Virus record (IMG/VR): IMGVR_UViG_3300036985_000683
Location: 1 to 47,958 of that record
Source: a virus
Direction: 5' to 3' (one strand)
Length of the DNA stretch: 47,958 nt
The position numbers and the translations under genes were made by a program. Shown one piece after another: positions 5,564 to 42,235 of the stretch. How positions within the stretch are numbered: the stretch's first letter is position 1; the number at the start of each line of letters is the position of its first letter. The notes under the pieces were generated by a model. That model was not told the origin of the DNA. It made no database searches and worked only from the letters and a program-made list of their open reading frames with translations.

Positions 5564-8500
5564 TTAACCCATTTTTCTTTTTTTAATTAGCTCTTTTCTT
5601 TTTTTAAGTTTTTCTTCTCTTCTTTTTAAAGCAGCCTCTCTTTTAATTTCAATTCTTCTCGCAATAGGCAAAGCTCTAATTGAGTCTTTTGTTCTTGCTC
5701 TTGTTTCTGCTCCTTTAATTTTACCCTCTTCAGCCCTAATTTTTTTTGCTGCGGTTTCTATTTTAATGTCACCCGGTGTATCTCCAACCCCTAAACTTCT
5801 AGGGTTCCATCCCAATCCTATTAATACACGTTGCCATGCTTTATTTTGAGAATTCATTGCTTGAGAAACGTTTTCAATTTTAGTAAATAAACGATCCATT
5901 GGTAAGTTAGTAGTAACTTCAGCCGCTTTACCTGCTACAGAATACAGAGGACCTAAATGTACTCTGCCGTCTTGCATAACTCCCCAACCCCTTTCTTTTA
6001 TAAGGTCTTTGTCAAACTTAGTTTGTTGTAAAGCAGTGTATACTTTTCTAACTTTAGATCCAATCGGTGGTGATATGTTAGTTGCCTCTAATAATACTTT
6101 TGTATAATCAGCTTTATAACCTTTAGGTTCTTCTTCTCTGTACTTTTTAATTACATTTTTTAACGTAACTAAAACACCTCCTAATAAACCGGTACCTCTT
6201 ACAATAGAATCAACAACCCCGCTAACTACATCTATTATTTTATTGTCTTTCTCTTTTAATCTTTTCTTTTTTGCTTCGTCATTTTCTTCATCATCATCTC
6301 CTAATCCTGGCAATACGGCAAATAACCCTTGTTGTAAAGCAGAAAACATTAAGTTTTGTATTGCAAAGTAATAAGCAATTTTTGCAATGTGTGTTTTAGC
6401 ATCTCCTCTACCGTTCTTAAGATCTAAAAAAGATTTCTTAACAATACGAGATTGTTGCATTGCTGTATTTTGAAAGGTAAGTAATAATCTACCTGCTCCA
6501 CTCGCTTGCTGTTTAGATATATCTCTTGGGTCACCAGATTGTTGCGTCTCATCTGATACCTTAGTAAAATCATTCCAAGCATTCTTTTCAGCTTCAACTT
6601 CTGTTTGACCTTCTTTTATATAAGACTTAATTCTATTTCTATAGTACGGAGCGCCTCCGGAAGCAATTGCAAAACTATCCGCGATTTGTGTTGGTGTATA
6701 TCCAATCTTTAATAAATAAGATACAACGGCAGTTGGTTTGTTTCTACTTGTAGCGGCGGCATTAGCAATTTCAGCAGCAGCCACATCTTCTTTAAGTCCA
6801 CCGCGTCTTTCTTTCATTTTATCTGAATTCCAAATGCGTGCAAAATCTGTCCAATATTGTTTTTGATTAGCAAAAGCCGCCCCAGCCGCTATAGGATTGT
6901 TATCTCTTAAGTTTAAGAAATTGACTGCTCCAATTAATTGTAATGCGGCAGATCTTGTGTTCAAGAACATTATAGTTCCAGTAGAACCGCTAACCCAATT
7001 AAGCCATTTGTTTGTTATTCCATCAGTTCCTTGTGATCTATTCTTACCGTTGATCATTCTATACAAAACATCTTCAATAGACTCTCTAACGTCAGTGCCG
7101 TAGATAGCTTCTATTTTATTCATATTAGGACCCACAAGTTTACCGTTTTCAAACTTACCAAACATTTGCTCAGCATTGTCAATGAATTCATTCAAGAATT
7201 GTTTTCTTCCCTCCCCTTCAGTTAGATTATGAAGATCAGATATAATTGCGCTTGCGTCCCAGTTGTCACCAGGTTTAACCCACCCATTTCCTTGTCTACC
7301 TAATACAATTAATCCAGACATAAATTCATATAACTCCGCATCATTATTAACTAAGGAAGTTAACTCATTTGTATCGCGTTTGGATAGCCCTGGGATCTCC
7401 ACATCTGATCCATTCCACATTGCAACACGCAAAGCTTGATCGTATGTAAAGTTTCCATCTGGGGTCAATTTTTCAAGTTTATTCGCAATACCTGGAAAAG
7501 CTTTTATTAACTCTTTATAATTCTTTTTAATAGATTGTCTTGCGGCATCCATCAAATCATTACCATTGGCATAAGGTTTTAACAACGCATCCGAAAAGAA
7601 TTTCATTTGAGCTTCGCCTTCTTTGCCTTTACCTATAAATTTATATAATAATAATTCAAAATCCGCAGCTGACGCGGGAACATATAAATCAAATAGATTT
7701 TTACCGGCCCCTTTTCTTTTTGCAACAATGTCAGAATATGAGATTGCAGGTCCAATACCCGTATTCCTAGATATAATCCTATTAAACTCCGGTCCTATCG
7801 TTTTGCTAAACTTAATCTTATTTTGTTGAATTTCGGATTTAACATCTACAACATTTAAAACGTCTTTAACCTGTGACAAACTGCCAATTCCTTTTTTTGA
7901 ACCAACAACGGTTTCTTTTTCGGTTAATATAAAAGACCCTTCTTTTGAATATAAATTAAAATTTAGATCTTTTGAAACATTTGTTGCTATTGTTTTAAAT
8001 AGATTATCAATATTTTTGTTGCCATTACTTATGTTATCACTACTTAATATAATTGTTTTTATATTATTACCATTTACAAACTCATTAATCGCACTAGAAA
8101 TAGAACTTATATCGTTTGCAGGTATATTTGCTAATTGTTCATTACTATTAATAAAAACAAATTCTTTAGTGTTTTGCGGGGCAAATACATATTTAAAGTT
8201 TTCCGGGTTTAAATCATTTTCTTTTATTAATCGTACAAAATTTTCATCACTTAACTCAGCATCAAAATCAAAGTCAACTTTAACATCTGCATTAGTTATT
8301 TGTAACTTTAATTCAGAGTCACCTGCTTTAATTTTCTTTTGATAAATCCTGCCTTTGTTTAAATCTTCCCAAGAACTATTATTTGGTATTTCAGCAGTTG
8401 CTGTTTTTGGTTTTTCTTTTGTGCTTCCTATAAGACTTTTATCATATAATAAATATGTTCCGTTTTCTGCTTTTGAATCCCATCCTAAACGGTCAGCAAT

Positions 8501-11500
8501 AATATTTGTCATAGAATTATACAATTTAATTCTACTAGGTTCTTTTGCATTAAAAGTAAATGCTTTTATATTCCTTTTATTTGCTAATTCAATAACGCCA
8601 TTTAAAACAGTCCCAAATACTTCTGCTGCATTACCAGTCCCCGTAATACCTGTACCTCTTTTTTTATCTGAAAATTCAACATCATATGCATTGCCATCAA
8701 TATCGCCTATAGTTTTATCATAGTCTAAATTATTATTTTCTACTATGTCAAGCAAGGCAGTATTTATATCATCGTCATATTCCATTGAGCCAATTTCTCT
8801 AAGCGCAATTCTATATGAGTTATTACCTACTTTAAAGTTTGTTGATAAATCTTCGTCTCCTTGTCTCCATTTTAAATCTTGTTTTGAAGTCAAAGAAAAC
8901 TTAATCATCGCTTGTTGTACTTTTGAATCAACACCTGGAATATTTAATGCTTTCTTAACCGCTTCAACATTTTGTATCGCATCGTCTGCAAAGTAAAAAT
9001 CATTATATCCTTCCGCAGCTTTTGCTGTTATCCAATCAGCTTTTGCTTGAGCGGTACTATTGCCTAATCCAGTTATATTCTCTAATGGTATATTAATACC
9101 TATTGAATCTAAAAACTCTTTAATAGGCACAGCAGCATTAGCGGGTCTTGCCGTAAGAATAAAGAAATTTTCATTCCCAAACTTAGCAATCATCTTCTTC
9201 ATCTTCTCAACCATAGGGCCTGGCTTGCCATTAACAACTTTGCTAAATTCGGAAAAATCAAATACTCCTCCATCATCTAATATGTTGTTACCTTCTTTTG
9301 CGAACTCTTCTGCGTTTAATTTACCAGTAGATCCATCAGGCATTGTGTATAGCACACTACCGCTTGTGAAGGCTGATGTATCATCAAAGTCAAAAACTGA
9401 AATACCTTTTGGCGTTTTAGAAAATTGAGGATTTAATGATTTTGTAACAGCGTCTATTGTAATTGCGTCCTCTTTAACTTTAGAATATTTTATTTTATCT
9501 AAAAATTCTTGTGGTTTATTATCTAAATTTATATTAGTTTTTTGATTAAAATTCGGATCTAAATTAAAGTAAGCCCTTTCTATTAATGTTCTAAATCCAT
9601 TCCCTGCTACCCTAGTCCTAAAATCAACAGATACAAATAGCTTTCCTTTCAGCACTTCAAAATTACCTGACAATGCAGCATTACTATTTGGAAACGCAAA
9701 CGCCCCATAATTTTCTATTTGTAGAATATCTTTACCAGGATTAATATCTGATATTGCAATTATAGGCAATTCAGCATAAGTACTTGTATTAGACCTATCT
9801 AATTCCTCGTATAATGTATTGCTTATTTGTATTCCTTTCGGTGTTAATTTAACTTCTTTACTGCCCTCTTTTATTAATTGTTTTAATTTATCAATAAACT
9901 TAGTTCTACCAGCATTAGCAATCATAGATTGTTCAAGATCTTTTATGCCTGAAAATTCTTTTGTAAAAGCTATATCTTTATTTATAAAGTCGCCATTACT
10001 AGTGCTACCCATTGGATCTCTTAAACTTGATTTTAATTCTACAACTATTTTATTGCCTGTATTTTTATTAATAAAAACTAAATCTGGTTTTATGCTATTA
10101 TACCGATCTGGTATATCTTCCTCTAAAGAAAAATTAGCTTTTGCTAAGTATCCTTTTAATTTTCTAAGTTTAGAATAAGTCTCTTTTTCATAATAAACGC
10201 CCTTATTTCTTTCCCAAACTTCTTCATATTTATCTGTTAAAGATTTTATTTTTTTTAGAAAGTAATTAATATCTTTTATTTCTGCGGTAGATAATGTTTT
10301 TAAAAACTTAGTATATTCTGCATAATCTTTTTTCCATCCGCCTTCTTGTAGTAAAAATAAGGCAGAATTTCTATTTGATATTTTTGAAAATTTAATATTA
10401 CCCCTATCTACTTGTTTATTAAATTCTGTTGTTAATACTTCATTTATTTCAACTCCTAATCTTTCTTGATTAGTATTGAATGCTTTTAATATTGGACCGT
10501 CATTTTCAAAGTCATCTTTTATAATATCAAAAGCTCCCTCTTCCGCCATTACTTTAGCCCACGATTCTTTTCTACCTCTAATAGGATTTCCATCAGGACC
10601 AATTAATTGAGCCAAATAAACTTCGTCAGATATATTATTAGCAACATTTGGCAATCTTCTAACAAGTTCAGAACCCGAAGTTCTACCTGCTTGATCCGTA
10701 GTTGTTTTTTCTCTATCAATTTTTTTATTAACCCATTCTGGAAAATTAACCCATTTACCATCAACTTGTTTTTGAATAGCTTGAGGAACTCCTCCTTGAC
10801 CATCTTTACCCATTAGGAAAGTTGTGGTCATATTCTCAAGGAAATACTTTTTATTTTTTAAAGCAAATTTCTTAAGTTGACCGTCTTTTTTACCACCCAT
10901 TGCGGTTTTAATGTCAATGTCAAGTTGCTTGCCAACTTCATCTCTAATTTCTGCAATTATTGGAGTAACAGTTCTATTTAAAGTAACGGGTGCGTCAATC
11001 CTAGATTTTAATGTTCTAAGTACTGTTATTATCTTACCTGTCATTGTTTTTAAGACCCCAGGCTCAAAAACTTTTGCTTCCAACGCATTCTTATACTTTG
11101 TTTTTTCTTTAGCTGTTTCAGTAAATGCTTGATCTGCGGTTTCAGTTGCCATTAACCCTTTTTCTTCTGCAGCATCTTTAGAAAATTGTTTATCCAATAT
11201 TCTTCTTGATGTAGCAATAGCTCTAACGGGTAAATACTTATTTATCCAGGCAGCTAACGGCGTTCCAGATTCTGGGTTGTATTTTGTAATTAAATCTAAA
11301 ATCCCTCCAACTCCGGTTTCAATTTCATCCGTAAGCAATTCTCTATCAAACCCAGGAGCATCCCTGCGTTTATCAACTATTTTATTAGTAATTGGCTTAA
11401 ATAGTTTTATTATTTCCGCGGCTCCTTCTTTTCCTTTAGCTTCATAAATTTGTTGTACTTTATTAGAAGAAATTGAACCGCTTTCATTTTTGATTATTTC

Positions 11501-14500
11501 TTTAACAGTATCCTCTTCGCTAACTTCTTTTTTAATAGTTGGAGTAGTTCCCTCTTTTGCAATAGCTCTTTTAAGTTCTCCTTCTAATTTTCTTACTTCT
11601 TGGTCATATTCATCTGGATCATAATCCCCTTCGTTCTCTTCAAGATCTGCAATTTTTTCTTTTACTAGTTCTGAAGCGGTTTTAGATGATGCCGTTGTTC
11701 CAATTACACTTTTACCCGCTTCTAATAAAGTTTTTTGACGACTTGTTAATTTACCCGCTTTAGAGGTTTTATGATAGTCCTTTAAAAACTGATATATATC
11801 ATTACCACTTTCAAAATCTAATTTTTCAAACCCTAAAACTTTATATATTGGGCGAAATATAGACTTCCACATACTCTTAAAAGTAGCATCTGTTGCTGTA
11901 ATTTCTTTGTTTTCTAACGCTTCAAAAAACTGAGTTAAATATTCATCTTGATTTTTTGAAAGATATTCTTTTGTATATCCTCTATCTTTCAATCTTTGTT
12001 CTACTACTAAATTTTCTTGAGCGCTTAATACGCCTTTAAATTTATTTAATAATTCATCAGCTTTTATAGAGTCATTAAATTGTGATTTTAATATTTTATG
12101 TAATAATTCATGACGGCCAGCAGAAGCTCCTTCATCAACTTCTCTAGCAATTTCTCTGTTTATTATTATTTGCCCATTAGGCAAAACAATAGCTGGTTGG
12201 CTTTCAAAATTTATTTTTACTTTATTGCCATTGTCATCTATTTCGTATAATTCATCTTGTCTGTTGTTATTAACAAACCAATTTTCAGCCGCTTTTGCGG
12301 ATTCTTCTTTAGTGTCTATGACATTATACGCTTCACCATTATTGATCGCTCCTTCCCCAAATTCTTCCACGTCGGTTTGAGAAGTTAATGTTTTTAGTCT
12401 TTCAACCTCTACATCTAATCTTTTATCATAAATATCAGTTATTTCAGTATTTAACCCATTAATCTGTTCGTCAATTTTTTGGTGAAATGGTTTAGCTATA
12501 ACTTTTTTACTTTCTTCTAAATTTTCTACCTCTTGTAATTTTCTAACTAAATTTAAACTTGTTTCAGCATCAACATCTTTTGGTATTTTTCGTATTTGAC
12601 GAACGGTTGAAATTGCATCATTTTTTAAAGCTTCTGCTTCTTTTTCTGTTGCAACGCCGCTTTTAACAAGCTCATCTAAATTGCTTTGGAATGTTATTGG
12701 ATTACTACCTAATGTAACCAAATTAATAAGTCTTTGATTAGGATCTTGCACAAAATTAGGAATCTTTGCATTAGCAATCATACCTCCAGATAAAAAAGCT
12801 AATCCGCTTGTATTAACAAAATCTTGGTAAGTATAAGTATCTTTTAATATTTTTTGTCCAGCAAGTTCATTTATATTAGCATTAACAATTTCTTGTTCTC
12901 CTACTTGTTGTATATTTTCTTGAACTGCCTCTTTTCCGCCTTCTTCAACAAATCCTACAGCACTTCTAGCCGCGGATTTTACACTGCTAGTTAAATTATT
13001 TATAAATCCTTTTGTCCCATTGTTTCTATATTCATTTAAAGCCTCTTTTAATAGCCTTTTTTCAGCAGAACCAAATATAAGTTCTCTTGCTTTTGTTTGA
13101 GGCGACAATGGAGCTGTAGCACCATATAATAAAGCCATTTGATTACCCGCTGTTAATGCCAACGCTTCCGCGTCTTTGTCATTTATTCCAGCGTCGCGGG
13201 CGGCTTTTAATGTTTGTTCGTATCCATTGGAATATCCAAAAGCGGATTGTGTTACAATAGCACCTGCCATATCTTTAGTTACAGGTAATGGCATTTTAGA
13301 TAATACTTTACCTCCAACGGCTTCGCTAAGATTTACCATGTTTTTATATTCTGCAACAGAAGAAAATCCAGCCCGAGTAGCCAAAGCTCTTGTGCCAATA
13401 GCGCCGCCTAGACCCATAGTCATTTCGGTCAATACTATTTGTGGCACCATAGCTCCTAATACTTGAGCAGTGCTTTTTGCAGCACCTCTAGGACTTATAT
13501 ACCAATCTTCTTTACCATTTTCTTGTATACCTTTTTTAATATTTTGATATTCACTATCATCAACCAACCCGGCAATATTAAATCCATGGGTTACATTATA
13601 TATATTACCCGCATCGTCGGTTTGGTATTTTATACCGTCAATAGTTGTACTTTTGCCTTTAATAAATCCACCAATACCCCTTGTATCAGGGTTTTTATAT
13701 TCATCATAAGCCGCTTGACTTCTAATAACGTCAGCCTCTTTATCAAGCCCAATTAAATCTTGACCAGTAGCTATTAATTCTTTACTAGTATTCCACATAC
13801 TGCCAACTAACTCTTTGCCAAACCCCCAAGTTTCCTCTAAGGCAGCCATTGGCGTGCTTCTAGTTCTAAGATGTTCAACTATTTTTTTATCCTCTATTAT
13901 TTTATTAGCATCTATTTTAGCTATAGTAGGGAACATAGTTTTATTATACTCTGAAACCAAATTAGGATCAATAACAGGTACTTCTTTATTAGTTTTATTA
14001 ATTTCTTGCCAATCTTTTTCAGGATTAAGTTCTTTATCCTTTAATTGTTTATATAGATTAGCATTTTTATCTTTATCCTTTAAATAAATGTTTAAATAAT
14101 TATTTAAAATTTTTTCTTTTTTAAATTGTACTTCTTCTTGCGATTGAGTACTTCTACCCATCCACTCAGGAGCTATGTCTTCAAACTTTTCTAACCAATT
14201 CCTTTGAAACGCGCCGCTTTGATCTTTGTTTATAAAATCATCTTTATATCCTTTTTTATTTATAAACCCGTCAAAATCATCTGGATTAATCCCTAATTTC
14301 TTAAGTTTATCCGAATTATAATTTTGATTAACAAACTCGTCTCCTTTTTTAGAAGTAGAGTAATATAAGTTTGGATCTTTTAAGTCCAAATCTTGTTTTT
14401 CAATTTCAAATTTTACCCCTTCTTTAGTTTTTAAATATTCTAATGATTTTTTTAAAAACTCTTTTGGTATTTCGGTTTCTGATGTACTAGCTTTTTTATA

Positions 14501-14911
14501 ATTTGCAATAGAAGGAATCCATGCTTGATCAGAATTAGGAGCAATGTTGCCGGTACTTCTTGCCTCAAAAGATCTTAATTTATTATCTTTTTTAACAGGG
14601 GCGGCAACCTTTTCAAGATTAGTTACAAAATCAGGTTGTGATTTGGTTTTTCCCCAAACATTATCTTGAGATACCGAAGAAGGTTTTACCAATTTGGATG
14701 CCGTACTTTTTACTGTTGCAACCGCATCTTTTTTTACAACAGGTTTTAGCTTTCCCGGCTCTTCAATTTTTATTTCCTCTTCTTTTTTAGTCTTTAATCC
14801 TAATTTATTTCTTTTAACAATATCCTCAAATGTTGTATTATTATCTTTAGCGGTTTGATTTATCTCGTCTATTGTATATAAATCACCTTCTTCGTTAATG
14901 TACTCTTCCAT
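5564..14911 (-). CDS. Giant (3115-residue) polyvalent, probably ejected virion protein
   Basis: Recognisable modules in order: an N-terminal low-complexity Lys-rich leader; a zincin motif HELLH at 934-938 with a likely third ligand at E990; a sigma-like helical stretch at ~1205-1245 (YNPESGTPLAAWINKYLP); a PD-(D/E)xK-type site at ~1608-1627 (KPDLVF, then VVELKS); a HAD-like domain from 1841 (DFDDT, FFILTARP, FADDA); a GNAT-like segment at ~2084-2140 (GTGNAAEVFG, FTFNAKEPSRIKLY); and a long C-terminal part (~2370-3115) like internal virion proteins of podoviruses (LLLTFQNTAMQQSRIVKK at ~2800). The motif I-K-[FY]-S-[KL] separates several modules. Position at the end of the cargo genes and the domain mix suggest a polyvalent protein sent into the host with the DNA. 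No RNA polymerase DxDxD signature was found. Individual activities are inferred from motifs. Confidence 0.85.
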   Translation of the reverse strand: MEEYINEEGDLYTIDEINQTAKDNNTTFEDIVKRNKLGLKTKKEEEIKIEEPGKLKPVVKKDAVATVKSTASKLVKPSSVSQDNVWGKTKSQPDFVTNLEKVAAPVKKDNKLRSFEARSTGNIAPNSDQAWIPSIANYKKASTSETEIPKEFLKKSLEYLKTKEGVKFEIEKQDLDLKDPNLYYSTSKKGDEFVNQNYNSDKLKKLGINPDDFDGFINKKGYKDDFINKDQSGAFQRNWLEKFEDIAPEWMGRSTQSQEEVQFKKEKILNNYLNIYLKDKDKNANLYKQLKDKELNPEKDWQEINKTNKEVPVIDPNLVSEYNKTMFPTIAKIDANKIIEDKKIVEHLRTRSTPMAALEETWGFGKELVGSMWNTSKELIATGQDLIGLDKEADVIRSQAAYDEYKNPDTRGIGGFIKGKSTTIDGIKYQTDDAGNIYNVTHGFNIAGLVDDSEYQNIKKGIQENGKEDWYISPRGAAKSTAQVLGAMVPQIVLTEMTMGLGGAIGTRALATRAGFSSVAEYKNMVNLSEAVGGKVLSKMPLPVTKDMAGAIVTQSAFGYSNGYEQTLKAARDAGINDKDAEALALTAGNQMALLYGATAPLSPQTKARELIFGSAEKRLLKEALNEYRNNGTKGFINNLTSSVKSAARSAVGFVEEGGKEAVQENIQQVGEQEIVNANINELAGQKILKDTYTYQDFVNTSGLAFLSGGMIANAKIPNFVQDPNQRLINLVTLGSNPITFQSNLDELVKSGVATEKEAEALKNDAISTVRQIRKIPKDVDAETSLNLVRKLQEVENLEESKKVIAKPFHQKIDEQINGLNTEITDIYDKRLDVEVERLKTLTSQTDVEEFGEGAINNGEAYNVIDTKEESAKAAENWFVNNNRQDELYEIDDNGNKVKINFESQPAIVLPNGQIIINREIAREVDEGASAGRHELLHKILKSQFNDSIKADELLNKFKGVLSAQENLVVEQRLKDRGYTKEYLSKNQDEYLTQFFEALENKEITATDATFKSMWKSIFRPIYKVLGFEKLDFESGNDIYQFLKDYHKTSKAGKLTSRQKTLLEAGKSVIGTTASSKTASELVKEKIADLEENEGDYDPDEYDQEVRKLEGELKRAIAKEGTTPTIKKEVSEEDTVKEIIKNESGSISSNKVQQIYEAKGKEGAAEIIKLFKPITNKIVDKRRDAPGFDRELLTDEIETGVGGILDLITKYNPESGTPLAAWINKYLPVRAIATSRRILDKQFSKDAAEEKGLMATETADQAFTETAKEKTKYKNALEAKVFEPGVLKTMTGKIITVLRTLKSRIDAPVTLNRTVTPIIAEIRDEVGKQLDIDIKTAMGGKKDGQLKKFALKNKKYFLENMTTTFLMGKDGQGGVPQAIQKQVDGKWVNFPEWVNKKIDREKTTTDQAGRTSGSELVRRLPNVANNISDEVYLAQLIGPDGNPIRGRKESWAKVMAEEGAFDIIKDDFENDGPILKAFNTNQERLGVEINEVLTTEFNKQVDRGNIKFSKISNRNSALFLLQEGGWKKDYAEYTKFLKTLSTAEIKDINYFLKKIKSLTDKYEEVWERNKGVYYEKETYSKLRKLKGYLAKANFSLEEDIPDRYNSIKPDLVFINKNTGNKIVVELKSSLRDPMGSTSNGDFINKDIAFTKEFSGIKDLEQSMIANAGRTKFIDKLKQLIKEGSKEVKLTPKGIQISNTLYEELDRSNTSTYAELPIIAISDINPGKDILQIENYGAFAFPNSNAALSGNFEVLKGKLFVSVDFRTRVAGNGFRTLIERAYFNLDPNFNQKTNINLDNKPQEFLDKIKYSKVKEDAITIDAVTKSLNPQFSKTPKGISVFDFDDTSAFTSGSVLYTMPDGSTGKLNAEEFAKEGNNILDDGGVFDFSEFSKVVNGKPGPMVEKMKKMIAKFGNENFFILTARPANAAVPIKEFLDSIGINIPLENITGLGNSTAQAKADWITAKAAEGYNDFYFADDAIQNVEAVKKALNIPGVDSKVQQAMIKFSLTSKQDLKWRQGDEDLSTNFKVGNNSYRIALREIGSMEYDDDINTALLDIVENNNLDYDKTIGDIDGNAYDVEFSDKKRGTGITGTGNAAEVFGTVLNGVIELANKRNIKAFTFNAKEPSRIKLYNSMTNIIADRLGWDSKAENGTYLLYDKSLIGSTKEKPKTATAEIPNNSSWEDLNKGRIYQKKIKAGDSELKLQITNADVKVDFDFDAELSDENFVRLIKENDLNPENFKYVFAPQNTKEFVFINSNEQLANIPANDISSISSAINEFVNGNNIKTIILSSDNISNGNKNIDNLFKTIATNVSKDLNFNLYSKEGSFILTEKETVVGSKKGIGSLSQVKDVLNVVDVKSEIQQNKIKFSKTIGPEFNRIISRNTGIGPAISYSDIVAKRKGAGKNLFDLYVPASAADFELLLYKFIGKGKEGEAQMKFFSDALLKPYANGNDLMDAARQSIKKNYKELIKAFPGIANKLEKLTPDGNFTYDQALRVAMWNGSDVEIPGLSKRDTNELTSLVNNDAELYEFMSGLIVLGRQGNGWVKPGDNWDASAIISDLHNLTEGEGRKQFLNEFIDNAEQMFGKFENGKLVGPNMNKIEAIYGTDVRESIEDVLYRMINGKNRSQGTDGITNKWLNWVSGSTGTIMFLNTRSAALQLIGAVNFLNLRDNNPIAAGAAFANQKQYWTDFARIWNSDKMKERRGGLKEDVAAAEIANAAATSRNKPTAVVSYLLKIGYTPTQIADSFAIASGGAPYYRNRIKSYIKEGQTEVEAEKNAWNDFTKVSDETQQSGDPRDISKQQASGAGRLLLTFQNTAMQQSRIVKKSFLDLKNGRGDAKTHIAKIAYYFAIQNLMFSALQQGLFAVLPGLGDDDEENDEAKKKRLKEKDNKIIDVVSGVVDSIVRGTGLLGGVLVTLKNVIKKYREEEPKGYKADYTKVLLEATNISPPIGSKVRKVYTALQQTKFDKDLIKERGWGVMQDGRVHLGPLYSVAGKAAEVTTNLPMDRLFTKIENVSQAMNSQNKAWQRVLIGLGWNPRSLGVGDTPGDIKIETAAKKIRAEEGKIKGAETRARTKDSIRALPIARRIEIKREAALKRREEKLKKRKELIKKRKMG

Positions 14912-17120: not shown

Positions 17121-17528
17121 TTATTTTATTTTTTTTGAAATTTCATACGATGGGTTTGTATCCACAGTATATCCTAATTTTTTATGAGTGTCTATTAAAT
17201 GTTTACTCTTGGTTATAGTTATTATTACGCTATATCCTTGTTGTTTAGCCACTTCTTCTAAAGTATTTATTAATAACTCTAAAGCTTCCTTTCTATCTTT
17301 ATCTTTATATTCAGGATTTGATACAATCCAATCTAGCCATGCTACCTTGGAATTTGATAAATATAAAAATCCAGCAGCAATATTAATACCGTCTTTATAA
17401 ACCATAATACCGCCCAATCCATTCAATGGCAATATATCTCTACTTACTTCTGGCCATCTCCACCATTTCCACCATGAAGGCAATTCATTCCAATCTGTTT
17501 CTCTTAATTCTCTTGCTTTTAATTTCAT
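17121..17528 (-). CDS. GNAT-family N-acetyltransferase
   Basis: This 135-residue single-domain protein shows the GNAT order: a first strand and WWKWW helix region, GLGGIMVYKDGINIAAGFLY (strands 2-4), WLDWIVSNPEYKDKDRKEA at the acetyl-CoA-binding turn, a helix (ALELLINTLEEVAKQQGY), and a final KHLIDTHKKLGYTVD typical of the fold. Such genes are often found among virion genes of Bacteroidota and marine phages; their substrate is unknown. The stop is 1 bp from the next start, so it is part of the cargo gene string. It could modify a virion protein or a host target. Confidence 0.75.
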   Translation of the reverse strand: MKLKARELRETDWNELPSWWKWWRWPEVSRDILPLNGLGGIMVYKDGINIAAGFLYLSNSKVAWLDWIVSNPEYKDKDRKEALELLINTLEEVAKQQGYSVIITITKSKHLIDTHKKLGYTVDTNPSYEISKKIK

Positions 17529-17545
17529 TTAATTTAATTTAATTA

Positions 17546-19048
17546 TTAATAACTTGATACCACATATTCTGAACCTACACTCCATAGCTTTTTAGGACCA
17601 CCTAAGTTTGTTATAGTGTCAGTAGATAAAGTTACAGTAGCATATTTTCCTTTTATTCCAGAAACATCATTACCCCATATAACCTCTCCATTTGTTGATG
17701 TACTATTGTTAACTAGATTTGCGTAGTATTTATTTTCTTTTCTTTCAAATCCATATCTATAAATAGGTGGAGTCAAAGCTAAAGGATAAGTATTACCTGA
17801 AGCATCGTAAGCACCAGCTAAATAACTTGGGATTAAAGCAACGGTATCATTACTCATTAACCAGTTACCGTTGGCATTCCATAATGTAAAAGGCGGAGTA
17901 AGTGGAGCGGTTTGAAATAGATCATTAAAATCATATTGCTGAGCATCGGATATAAAAGTATCTAACTGCCACCCATTATCACCTTCGTAATTAATTGTTT
18001 TAAAGTTTTTAGACATTCCAGAATTTTCATTAAAAACAAAAGTAATACTAGACTTAGTATATATCCCATAGAAATTATTGTTATTTACAATATTGCTATA
18101 ATGTTGCCACAATTTACCGCTTTTAACTGTATATACACTATTTTTTAAACTTATTATTTGAGAAGGATCATAACTAAAGAAACTTGTAAAACCATTAGAT
18201 GATTCATCAAATATTACAGTATAATAATCTTTATTAGGATTATTAAAAGAACGTTGTAAAGATAATACATATTGTTTATTATGTATATCCCAACCGCCAA
18301 TTACTAATCCAGGTCCAAATTGAGCCGAATCTATGTTTACAAATTCATCTCTAAAGAAATCAATCATTCCATATCCTGATATTTCAGTTATACCATCTTG
18401 TGACAATCTTAAAACCGCTCCTCTAAATCTATCTGTAAAGTATTTTCGATAACCATAGACAGCAAAACTTTGAGGATCTTTGCTTATACCATAGTTACCA
18501 GCATATTGTTGAATCTGGCCAATTACAGCGCTTCCTGAGGTTGTCAGTGCTTCTCCTTCTGCGGAATAAACCGCATCTTTGTCTATCAACGCTCTACTTA
18601 CTTTATTTTCTTGGAATATTATTAAGTTGGTGTCTTCTGCATATAGTTTTTGTATTGACCCATTTGCTGGATCAGAACTTTTACTTATGTCTTCGCCTAC
18701 TGAGAATTCATTTGTTTGGTTTATACCAGTTCTTGAATTATATATACCAGAATATATCATAGAACTAGTTCTAATATTTGCGGTATTATCTTCGTCGACT
18801 ATGTAAGCTCGTACGCCAAGGTTTACTATAGTATTATTATACCCACCTCGTATCCTTGCTTCCTCTACAAACCAATTATTTATATTTGCGTTTGGTGTTT
18901 GTATAGCAGCTCCTCTAGGATAACCGCCTATAACCTCGGGTATCCCTAAAGAACCATTCCAAACTGAAGAAGCGTTATATTCATTGTCATCTAAAGTGTT
19001 TTTTAATATAAAAGTATTAAAATACTTAACTTCTATTTCTGCTGCCAT
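17546..19048 (-). CDS. Structural protein of the tail/connector, beta-rich
   Basis: This 500-residue, beta-rich protein has many aromatic residues and repeated short strands (for example DRFRGAVLRLSQDGITEISG and SLQRSFNNPNKDYYTVIFDE), a pattern compatible with a beta-propeller. It is followed by cargo genes and preceded by the 1196-residue stabilisation-type protein. In related phages this pair belongs to the tail hub/stabilisation complex. I see no enzymatic motif. The role is inferred mostly from place and composition. Confidence 0.65.
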   Translation of the reverse strand: MAAEIEVKYFNTFILKNTLDDNEYNASSVWNGSLGIPEVIGGYPRGAAIQTPNANINNWFVEEARIRGGYNNTIVNLGVRAYIVDEDNTANIRTSSMIYSGIYNSRTGINQTNEFSVGEDISKSSDPANGSIQKLYAEDTNLIIFQENKVSRALIDKDAVYSAEGEALTTSGSAVIGQIQQYAGNYGISKDPQSFAVYGYRKYFTDRFRGAVLRLSQDGITEISGYGMIDFFRDEFVNIDSAQFGPGLVIGGWDIHNKQYVLSLQRSFNNPNKDYYTVIFDESSNGFTSFFSYDPSQIISLKNSVYTVKSGKLWQHYSNIVNNNNFYGIYTKSSITFVFNENSGMSKNFKTINYEGDNGWQLDTFISDAQQYDFNDLFQTAPLTPPFTLWNANGNWLMSNDTVALIPSYLAGAYDASGNTYPLALTPPIYRYGFERKENKYYANLVNNSTSTNGEVIWGNDVSGIKGKYATVTLSTDTITNLGGPKKLWSVGSEYVVSSY

Positions 19049-32979: not shown

Positions 32980-33254
32980 TATTTAGATCTCCCTTCTGCA
33001 AAACCTTTAAATACTTTAACCTCTATATCTCTGTCTCCGTCTAATAACATTTTTTCCTCTTCTTCTATTCTGGTAAGAATTTCAAAAGCATCAAATATGG
33101 CTAGTTTTTTAGTTGCTGCAGCGTTCTTTAATTTATCTGCTGACAAATCGTCGTCCCCGTTATTTAAAATAGCTTCTTCTGCTACTTTAATTAATTCAAG
33201 TACTGCTTTGTGTCCAGCCAGGATTATATTCTGCTTCGTTTCCTTTATATTCAT
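32979..33254 (-). CDS. Small helical protein before TerL, possible terminase small subunit
   Basis: This 91-residue, all-helical protein contains KAVLELIKVAEEAILNNGDD and SADKLKNAAATKKLAIFDAF, with an acidic C-terminal half. I recall the same motif just upstream of TerL in other Bacteroidota phages. It lacks an obvious DNA-binding helix-turn-helix, so the small-subunit role is only suggested by position. Its start lies 59 bp inside the upstream GroES-like gene, and no later Met allows a full protein. Confidence 0.6.
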   Translation of the reverse strand: MNIKETKQNIILAGHKAVLELIKVAEEAILNNGDDDLSADKLKNAAATKKLAIFDAFEILTRIEEEEKMLLDGDRDIEVKVFKGFAEGRSK

Positions 33255-33804
33255 ATTTAATTACAATATCATTAGATTTCATACAATAAAGTCTTTGCCC
33301 TTCGACAACAAACTCAAACTCTCCGTTAGGAGTATAACCCACAAGGTCTCCCTCGTTTATTTTAAGCGCGTTTAAAGAACTATTACCGTATTTTAATATG
33401 CCAATAAGGCGTTGTTCTTTATCTAGCTTTAAATGATCTATATTTTTCAATGGTTTAATAAAGCATCTGTCTCCAAATGACTTCCACTTATTATCTCTTT
33501 TATATAAATAAATTTGATCTATATCGCAAAAATACATTTTGTCCATAAAGAACGCTCTGCTATTTTTTTGTTTACCTTTTATGTCGTAGAATCTTCTAAA
33601 AACATTGTGATGTATTATTACAAAATCACCAACTTTTATGTCAGTTGAATAAGCTAGCGGGATTGCAACAACCTCCGCTAAGTTATTCACAGATTTAAAA
33701 CTTTCTATTTTTGTATTAAGTACTAGGTTTCCACCATCTACTTTAATTTCATTATCGTATCTTTCACCTACTGGTTTTACGATAAAACTAAATACACTTG
33801 TCAT
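33196..33804 (-). CDS. GroES-fold-like co-chaperonin-type protein (T4 gp31-like)
   Basis: This 202-residue protein has chaperonin-10-type wording in two places: VVAIPLAYSTDIKVGDFVII with HHNVFRRFYD, and later GDLVGYTPNGEFEFVVEGQR with LYCMKSNDIVIKYEY. This resembles the GroES beta-barrel, which T4 replaces with gp31 to fold its capsid protein. It is much longer than GroES (97 residues) and could hold two related barrels. It precedes TerL and the head genes and may help fold the capsid protein with the phage GroEL. The fold call is moderate and no mobile-loop hydrophobic triplet is evident. Confidence 0.55.
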   Translation of the reverse strand: MTSVFSFIVKPVGERYDNEIKVDGGNLVLNTKIESFKSVNNLAEVVAIPLAYSTDIKVGDFVIIHHNVFRRFYDIKGKQKNSRAFFMDKMYFCDIDQIYLYKRDNKWKSFGDRCFIKPLKNIDHLKLDKEQRLIGILKYGNSSLNALKINEGDLVGYTPNGEFEFVVEGQRLYCMKSNDIVIKYEYKGNEAEYNPGWTQSST

Positions 33805-37521: not shown

Positions 37522-37851
37522 TTATTTAACACTTTTGCTTTGCTTAGTATACGCTTCCTTTTCCCAAGGCAGATTTTTTGCCCCTTCTTTCATTGCTGAA
37601 CGAGAGTATTTTTTTCCTTTCCAGAGTACATGTGTGTCAGTATAATCTAAATCTCCACGTTTCATCTGATCAATATGAACCATTTCGTGTTCTATTGTTT
37701 TACTTTTTTGTAATTCTAATGGCGATACGTTCTTATTTACCAGTATAGTTCCATTTGATTGAGCCATACCTAAAACATTATCGTCCATATCCGTACTATA
37801 AATAGGTGTATTGTGCACATTGTAAGGTGCCCCTTTCATTGTAAATGCCAT
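37522..37851 (-). CDS. Small zinc metallopeptidase-like (DUF4157-type HExxH) protein
   Basis: This 109-residue protein has a zincin site HEMVH at residues 55-59 (TIEHEMVHIDQMKRGD) and a likely third ligand Glu in LPWEKEAY (E97 or E99). Upstream strands include GTILVNKNV. The HEMVHIDQ wording resembles DUF4157-type and related eCIS/phage small peptidases. It is embedded in a run of small late genes. It may process virion proteins; no head maturation protease is otherwise visible in this genome part. Activity is not proven. Confidence 0.7.
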   Translation of the reverse strand: MAFTMKGAPYNVHNTPIYSTDMDDNVLGMAQSNGTILVNKNVSPLELQKSKTIEHEMVHIDQMKRGDLDYTDTHVLWKGKKYSRSAMKEGAKNLPWEKEAYTKQSKSVK

Positions 37852-40431: not shown

Positions 40432-40691
40432 TATAAAACTACTACTACATCCTGAATTTTTATAACAAAATAAGTTTCTTTATCTAATTCTATCTTGTGA
40501 CCGGCGTGCCTATCATAAAATATCATATCTTCTTCTTTAATTCCTACTACTTCTTCACCTATAGATAAAACTTCAGCTTCTATATATCTAATGTCTTCTC
40601 TTTGGTTCTTGGCAAGCATTAACCCGCCTTTAGTTGTAGTGGTTCCTTCTTTTACTTTCTGTATAATTAAATTTTTACCTATTGCCTTCAT
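40431..40691 (-). CDS. groES: Co-chaperonin GroES
   Basis: This 86-residue protein shows KAIGKNLIIQKVKEGTTTTK, the mobile loop with GGLMLAKNQRE (LML in place of the usual IVL contact), EAEVLSIGEE, and DMIFYDRHAGHKIELDKETY ending KIQDVVVVL. It caps the GroEL ring during folding. It is somewhat shorter than E. coli GroES (97). Its start overlaps the stop of the upstream groEL by 1 bp, and its stop overlaps the start of the winged-helix gene by 1 bp. Confidence 0.9.
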   Translation of the reverse strand: MKAIGKNLIIQKVKEGTTTTKGGLMLAKNQREDIRYIEAEVLSIGEEVVGIKEEDMIFYDRHAGHKIELDKETYFVIKIQDVVVVL

Positions 40692-42235
40692 TATGCTCTC
40701 AGGTTATTAATTATACAGTCAGTTGATAATATAGTAACTGCTACAGATGCCGCGTTTCTTAACGCGCTTTTAGTAACTAACAAAGGATCAATTATACCAG
40801 CTTTAATCATATCAACAGTTTCCCCGGTTATAACATCAAGCCCATACCCAACCTTTGATATTGTTTCTATTGGTGCATTTTCAATTCCCGCGTTGTCTAA
40901 TATAGTTTTAAAAGGAGCTCTAATAGAATCTAATAATATCTCTTCTCCAATTGAAAAAGTATCTATGTTATGCGAAGCGTTTAGTAAAGCAATTCCACCT
41001 CCTGGTACAATGCCCTCTTTAATAGCTGCCTTGGTTGCACAAATTGCGTCTTCAATTCTATCTGCTTTTTCTTTTAATTCTATCTCAGAATTTGCACCTA
41101 CTTTAACTATAGCAATCTTAGCTGTTAAACGAGCTAATCTTTTTTCTAGTTTTATAACCGTATAATTAGGATTGTTTTCTAATAAAGACTTTTTAATATC
41201 CTTTATTATTTCCAATATATCTTCGGGTGTTTCGCCTACGTGAAGAACTGTTTCTTCATGGCTGGTAACACTTTTAATACATGTACCCAAATGTTCTGGT
41301 TGTATTAAATCTAAATCATCTCCAAGGTCTTCATTTATAACAGTCGCTCCTGTTAATAAAGCGAGATCATCTAAAATCTCTTTTCTGTTGATTCCAAAAG
41401 TTGGTGCGTTTATAACATTAACCTTTATATTGCCTTTAGATCTGTTCATTGCTAAAGCAGATAGAACTCCTTGTTCTAGGTCTCCTATAATAAGTAATGA
41501 TTTTTTATTCTTTATAACATATTCTAATACAGATTGTACTTGTCGTATGCTTTCAACAGGTGATTCAATTAGTAGCACTAAAGGATTATCTAGCTCTGCT
41601 GTTTTATTTTTATGATTGGTTATAAAATGAGAATTTGTTAATCCCATATTACATTGTACGCCTTCTACTACTTGTAAACTACATTCTGGATCTGAAGATG
41701 TTTCCATCATTACAATTCCTGTATTACCAACTGATCTAAAAGCGTCCCCAACTAATTTACCCAATACAGGGTCGTTGTTGGTTGATATAGTTGCTATTTG
41801 GTCCAGCATCGCATCGTCTACTTTTATAGACATATTATCTAAATATTCTATAACTTTTTCAACGGCTTTATTTATACCTTCTTTTAATTGCCTAGCGTTT
41901 ACGTTTTCTAAAGCATAAGCGTTCTTTAAAATAGAATGAGCTAATACAGTAGCGGTTGTAGTTCCGTCACCGGCTTCCCTAACTGTTTTTCTTGCGGCTT
42001 CCTTTAATAATGTAGCTCCCATGTTTTCTACAGGATCTAATAGTATAATTGAATCAGCAACAGTAACCCCATCTTTTGTTATAACAGGTTTCCCGGTAGA
42101 GTCTTCTAAAAGAACACATTTACCATTTGCTCCCAGTGTAGAACTAACTGCTTTTGTTAGTTTCTCTATTCCAGCAAATACTTTATCACTAGCTTCTTTT
42201 CCAAAGCTTAAATTTTTGACTATAGCGTCTGACAT
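40691..42235 (-). CDS. groEL: Chaperonin GroEL
   Basis: This 514-residue phage chaperonin has the nucleotide-binding GDGTTTATVLA (Asp D90, E. coli D87), SSTLGANGKCVLL, ITKDGVTVA and the apical domain with GNTGIVMMETSSD. The ATPase Asp in RIEDAICATKAA (D396, E. coli D398) and EGIVPGGGIALL are present. The GGM-repeat C-terminal tail of bacterial GroEL is missing and the sequence ends CIINNLRA. It has its own A/T-rich leader, and it is followed without a gap by groES, the reverse of the usual bacterial groES-groEL order. Probably for folding the capsid or giant proteins. Confidence 0.95.
   Translation of the reverse strand: MSDAIVKNLSFGKEASDKVFAGIEKLTKAVSSTLGANGKCVLLEDSTGKPVITKDGVTVADSIILLDPVENMGATLLKEAARKTVREAGDGTTTATVLAHSILKNAYALENVNARQLKEGINKAVEKVIEYLDNMSIKVDDAMLDQIATISTNNDPVLGKLVGDAFRSVGNTGIVMMETSSDPECSLQVVEGVQCNMGLTNSHFITNHKNKTAELDNPLVLLIESPVESIRQVQSVLEYVIKNKKSLLIIGDLEQGVLSALAMNRSKGNIKVNVINAPTFGINRKEILDDLALLTGATVINEDLGDDLDLIQPEHLGTCIKSVTSHEETVLHVGETPEDILEIIKDIKKSLLENNPNYTVIKLEKRLARLTAKIAIVKVGANSEIELKEKADRIEDAICATKAAIKEGIVPGGGIALLNASHNIDTFSIGEEILLDSIRAPFKTILDNAGIENAPIETISKVGYGLDVITGETVDMIKAGIIDPLLVTKSALRNAASVAVTILSTDCIINNLRA

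Follow-up and report, generated by a model that had tools for sequence, protein, structure and literature searches.

The stretch of DNA analyzed here, referred to as the window, is 47,958 nucleotides of viral sequence (IMG/VR record IMGVR_UViG_3300036985_000683, positions 1 to 47,958), and it encodes a giant protein of 3115 amino acids (aa) in which a short peptide recurs at the seams between modules. This junction tag, [V/I]-K-[F/Y]-S-K, is common to the seams of related giants in dozens of phages, and a repeated, selected junction peptide is established at the sequence level for the family of the window giant. The reading that we favor, with a probability of about 0.55, is that the peptide is a proteolytic processing signal at the seams of a polyvalent "polyprotein"; the cutting, the enzyme, the exact site, and the timing are what we infer. 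The chain runs from an N-terminal part through a metallopeptidase domain and a series of exchangeable modules to a conserved C-terminal domain, with the following features, given in the direction of translation (pLDDT is the predicted local distance difference test score of AlphaFold).

5564..14911, minus strand: giant multidomain (polyvalent-type) protein, 3115 aa, a single open reading frame (ORF)
11897..12334, minus strand: zincin-like metallopeptidase domain, aa 860-1005, with HELLH at nucleotides 12098-12112
11681..11701, minus strand: degenerate junction after the metallopeptidase, TTASSK, aa 1071-1077; a KxSK column in most relatives, with S nearly invariant
11177..11188, minus strand: QFSK, aa 1242-1245, a rejected copy; S not conserved in its column
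10382..10396, minus strand: junction copy 1, IKFSK, aa 1506-1510, after the conserved DRGN, in a linker with pLDDT<50
9494..10381, minus strand: variable module, nuclease-like, aa 1511-1806, folded in the AlphaFold model
9479..9493, minus strand: junction copy 2, IKYSK, aa 1807-1811, at the end of the folded nuclease-like module
9416..9427, minus strand: junction copy 3, QFSK, aa 1829-1832, degenerate, 21 residues after copy 2 and forming a tandem pair with it; pLDDT below 50
8906..9415, minus strand: HAD-like module, aa 1833-2002, with FDFDDT, LTARP, and DD motifs invariant in alignment A3
8891..8905, minus strand: junction copy 4, IKFSL, aa 2003-2007, after QQAM, at the edge of a linker with pLDDT<50
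7817..8890, minus strand: optional module, GNAT-like, aa 2008-2365, absent from most relatives
7802..7816, minus strand: junction copy 5, IKFSK, aa 2366-2370, after QQNK, in a linker with pLDDT<50; conserved before the C-terminal domain in relatives
5567..7801, minus strand: conserved C-terminal virion domain, aa 2371-3115 (alignment A2, mean column identity 64%)

The pattern IK[FY]S[KL] occurs four times in the giant (aa 1506, 1807, 2003, and 2366), compared with an average of 0.017 in 5000 shuffled versions of the protein. A scan of 34 further window ORFs (10,940 aa) found no strict motif and two matches to the loose pattern. The original prediction, made from the window alone, had listed six copies. 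The four strict ones stood, and PQFSK at 1829 is kept as a degenerate copy since the same place, directly before the HAD domain, reads PKFSK, TNLSK, or PTFSK in relatives. The remaining one, DKQFSK at 1242, was wrongly included; relatives have FKKD, FSKD, FTSD, or FNKD there, with F and D conserved, and we dropped it because the serine of the column is not. The earlier listing had also missed the junction right after the metallopeptidase, which is a KxSK sequence in most relatives and degenerate in the window giant. The claim that the copies bracket a nuclease, a HAD domain, and a GNAT-like module holds in a loose form: copies lie between nuclease-like, HAD-like, and GNAT-like regions and the conserved C-terminal domain, under domain names that are weakly supported. 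Several separately folded regions and modular exchange are evident in the giant, and most of the enzyme names of its modules stand for motifs or weak matches. No significant Pfam match backs these names. The nuclease-like module has a weak AHJR-nuclease match (E 0.08), the HAD-like module is named by its motifs, and the GNAT-like module gives a weak PHROG match together with weak acetyltransferase fold matches.

Relatives came from four scans of IMG/VR, three with profiles and one with a single sequence, and were reduced to 141 non-redundant giants; a search of genome contigs yielded a single short relative, on a contig assigned by binning to a gammaproteobacterium. Enrichment over shuffled sequences in homologues, which had been proposed as a check, was clear, as [IV][KR][FY]S[KRL] is present in 121 copies in 73 of the 141 giants, with a mean of 6.6 and a maximum of 14 in 100 shuffles. 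Six scrambled orders of the same residue classes occur 1 to 5 times each. When one position was varied at a time, the enrichment was 22-fold for V and 15-fold for I at the first, 23-fold for K at the second, 27-fold for F and 6-fold for Y at the third, 18-fold for S and 1.5-fold for T at the fourth, and 31-fold for K at the fifth. Judged from these counts, each motif position is under selection. One rival reading is a structural linker or helix cap that nothing specifically recognizes, for which a flexible, basic joint would suffice. The location of the motif in low-confidence linkers and the preference for S or T at +2 would suit such a joint, but a generic joint needs no K-F-S-K order, while the scrambled orders are unenriched and T fails to replace S, and we regard this explanation as very doubtful.

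The core [V/I]-K-F-S-K-[S/T] was found in at least 43 distinct upstream contexts after removal of similar ones, with S or T at +2 in 23, and the 75 copies of [IV]KFSK are encoded by 34 different 15-mers, with serine drawn from both of its codon families, TCN and AGY. Given so many upstream contexts and codons, selection therefore acts on the peptide. These data bear on a further explanation, that the motif is a by-product of module shuffling in which recombination uses DNA homology at the seam as an arm and the peptide itself is without function. The motif does mark exchange breakpoints, and a short segment with QQxxIKFS at its end is repeated behind both the HAD-like and the GNAT-like module in the window giant and in five relatives, which would suit this explanation. 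The two copies of the segment, however, are only 42-48% identical in DNA in ungapped comparison, which argues against a recombination site as such; the DNA of the motif is likewise unconserved, and the same core stands in unlike surroundings. We consider a roleless peptide highly improbable, and both the passive linker and the DNA recombination site fit the data poorly.

Homology blocks between relatives stop 0 to 4 residues past the serine of the motif at 29 times the background, and the ratio at control sites ([FY]S lacking basic flanks, TPEE, and K[FY]T) is close to 1. This enrichment comes largely from two conserved junctions; the other copies have a mean of 3.2x, with 48 of 139 above 3x. 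At the RGN junction (copy 1), the upstream 150 aa belong to one cluster in 67 of 67 cases and the downstream 150 aa to 23 BLAST clusters, a number that is an upper bound on unrelated families, since clustering at E<1e-4 may split remote homologues. The C-terminal junction has one cluster downstream (51 of 51) and six upstream, and homology blocks of relatives also stop at junction copy 4. Adjacent copies are either 7 to 27 or at least 121 residues apart, with none between, so that what separates them is either the spacing of tandem sites (as at 1807 and 1829 in the window giant) or a whole module. Such spacing would follow if copies always fell outside domains and were sometimes in tandem. When all inter-motif segments were clustered by single linkage, they merged into one chained cluster, and this result was discarded. 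Splitting of the gene at junctions was also considered, and in the single contig found (L054/L221) the break is within the HAD-like module, away from the motif; there the giant gene consists of two overlapping ORFs, the second of which starts inside that module with an unrelated N-terminus.

In an AlphaFold model of aa 1235-2430 (29 sequences, mean pLDDT 65), the copies at 1506, 1829, and 2366 are inside stretches with pLDDT below 50, and those at 1807 and 2003 lie at the ends of folded domains adjoining such stretches. About one-quarter of the model has a pLDDT below 50, so that the placement in linkers is supported by it and not proven. With that reserve, the model supports a location of the junction copies in linkers or at domain edges. 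Hydrophobic residues are depleted upstream of the motif (0.28 versus 0.38-0.39). A Foldseek search with the 1196-aa model gave no significant match.

The position of the copies relative to the embedded metallopeptidase is a further regularity. Four residues of this domain (H75, E76, H79, and E131) are invariant in 27 relatives, and a confident AlphaFold model places HExxH and the third-ligand Glu on separate helices. Foldseek detected no significant zincin match to this model in the PDB, so the zincin assignment rests on the active-site residues and the topology. The TTASSK junction that follows has a pLDDT below 50 (AlphaFold, model residues 212-217). Of 126 long relatives, 121 have HExxH, and 111 of 112 strict copies lie C-terminal to it; without the two commonest junctions, the figure is 61 of 63 (p about 2e-8, assuming independence).

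The main rival to processing is a docking or sorting peptide, in which the linkers of the modules would bind a common partner (a chaperone, the portal, or an ejection component), and this partner would package, unfold, or thread the giant. A short peptide with strict K, aromatic, S, and K residues that recurs in disordered linkers does resemble a docking motif, GroEL and GroES are encoded by the phage itself, and copies persist where the metallopeptidase is degenerate. Docking alone, however, leaves unexplained why nearly all copies sit downstream of the peptidase and why they are found exactly at breakpoints and not anywhere in the linkers, and we judge it unlikely. The original suggestion had been a cleavage or linker signal. 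A repeated junction signal is strongly supported, cleavage is the role that best fits the evidence, and a passive spacer is disfavored by the residue-specific conservation.

The giant is made as one chain comprising the N-terminal part, the zinc-metallopeptidase, exchangeable effector-like modules, and the conserved C-terminal domain. If the peptide is a processing signal, a protease would cut the disordered linkers at [V/I]-K-[F/Y]-S-[K/R]-[S/T], either during assembly or after injection, and cutting at the junction signal would free the modules. The cutter could be the embedded metallopeptidase, acting in cis or in trans, or another phage or host protease. Because the signal would be portable, unrelated modules could be exchanged while the tag stays at the seam.

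Several observations weigh against processing. A strict copy is lacking in 68 of the 141 relatives, and among the cultured phages checked, the giants of elemo, phi38:1, phi18:3, Gundel, and crAss001 have no repeated junction motif; crAss001 gp49 has a lone IKFSR, which is a chance-level match. Three relatives (L142, L144, and L168) have [LI]EELFH, in which the first His is lost, and keep 2 to 3 strict copies. Their metallopeptidase is apparently inactive, and no other HExxH was found in the DNA examined. The embedded metallopeptidase therefore cannot be the only possible cutter: either a protease acts in trans, or another enzyme cuts, or the motif is not a cut site. Across the relatives, loss of HExxH and loss of the motif are not linked. 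Finally, the N4 virion RNA polymerase carries a metallopeptidase domain of this kind and is packaged uncut, according to the available passages of Iyer et al. 2017 (PMC5512222). The term "polyprotein" in the original prediction is at odds with this last case, and fits the metallopeptidase processing predicted for phage polyvalent proteins in the same passages.

Variants of the motif offer a lead as to a recognizing partner. In some relatives the motif varies in the same way at unrelated junctions: Q replaces K at position 2 in four copies of one relative (L165, IQFSK) and in two copies each of two others (L195 and L136), and each of the three L018 junctions has R for F at position 3 (KRSK). 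Within proteins, motif variants agree in 129 of 141 pairs versus 116 in shuffles (p 1e-4, uncorrected for ancestry). This concerted change suggests coevolution with a recognizer, and we treat it as a lead only because L165 dominates it and ancestry is uncorrected; the smallness of the signal and the uncorrected ancestry also count among the points against processing. No separate protease gene was recognized by Pfam or PHROGs among the window proteins scanned, and no prohead protease was recognized in the window. A 109-aa protein with HEMVH, a possible small metallopeptidase, is encoded at 37522-37851 of the window, and one relative (L181) has near the end of its giant an HEEQH segment that resembles it. 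The motif was also considered as a prohead-protease substrate of the T4 or phiKZ type and rejected, as such a substrate needs a motif ending in Glu and [VI]K[FY]S[KR] has none.

The closest known class is that of the polyvalent proteins. As described in the available passages of PMC5512222, these are, like the window giant, very large and multidomain, with a zincin-like HExxH and a third-ligand Glu (in the window giant, an HExxH helix and then a helix with the Glu ligand), mixed enzyme-like modules, extensive domain shuffling, and predicted proteolytic release. The passages give no junction motif or cleavage signal for them, whereas the window giant repeats one at its seams. P1 DdrB, a phage head protein with the same class of metallopeptidase, is cut before packaging; for DdrB and the N4 RNA polymerase, another phage head protein, both of which share this class with the window giant, those passages report no shared junction motif. 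The literature search found no text combining KFSK with phage and no description of the signal, in agreement with the original view that it was undescribed. The protein class and the idea of processing are known, but the junction signal itself appears to be undescribed.

Among signals that are known to be cut, those of the SPN3US prohead protease gp245 (PMC10052503) are similar in being a short repeat in several virion proteins, with several sites per propeptide and Ser favored at P1'. That enzyme cuts after Glu, mostly removing N-terminal propeptides, whereas the window motif is basic and aromatic, lacks Glu, and separates modules inside one chain. The related podovirus crAss001 has giant virion proteins (gp47, gp49, and gp50), of which gp47 has HEAFH; unlike the window giant, they have no repeated junction motif, although the window shares the crAss-type muzzle domain. 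A different candidate, VRYSLKD at the junctions of polyvalent proteins of other phages, is unsupported rather than refuted: a pattern scan gave 34 matches versus 17 for a scrambled control, none in a giant ORF, in a collection apparently poor in gut phages. As in viral polyproteins, a short signal recurs at domain boundaries in the window family; protease activity and signal are not lost together, as the signal persists in the three relatives whose HExxH is degenerate, where a protease might act in trans.

A wider proposal, which we put forward tentatively and hold to be somewhat short of even odds, is that tailed phages have a true polyprotein system, in which one portable cleavage code parts interchangeable injected effectors within a single virion protein and coevolves with its protease. 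If the motif is the signal, it would provide a testable cut-site code for polyvalent proteins, for which cutting into active pieces has been a prediction since 2017. Module boundaries could then be taken straight from the sequences of dozens of uncharacterized phage giants, the motif would point to the protease, and it would explain how phages can exchange injected effectors and leave the protein that carries them unharmed.

The giant ORF is the last gene of the structural block. In Cellulophaga phage phi18:3, gp123 is a giant at the matching position and is annotated as a virion protein from tandem mass spectrometry (MS/MS); its sequence similarity to the window giant is not detectable, so the location in the virion is drawn from synteny, by which the window giant is probably carried in the phage particle. 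The window portal shares 41% identity with the portal of Flavobacterium phages elemo, 51% with that of an uncultured podovirus, and 29-34% with those of Cellulophaga phages phi38:1 and phi18:3, the closest portals being those of Flavobacterium/Cellulophaga podoviruses. From these portal relatives, phages with the motif would probably have a Bacteroidota host. A crAss-type muzzle C-terminal domain (PF25729, window 17546-19048) scored above the cut-off. GroEL and GroES-like proteins are encoded at window 40691-42235 and 33196-33804, respectively, and a small separate gene adjoining the structural block (17121-17528) has weak acetyltransferase similarity (phrog_1249). Within the giant, a conserved domain at window 11156-11464 (aa 1150-1252) resembles sigma-70 region 2. 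The top Foldseek matches of its model were mostly sigma factors, none of them significant (best E 0.24), and the best profile match among solved structures was also a sigma factor (E 1.3). A sigma-like domain carried in the virion would be notable, if true.

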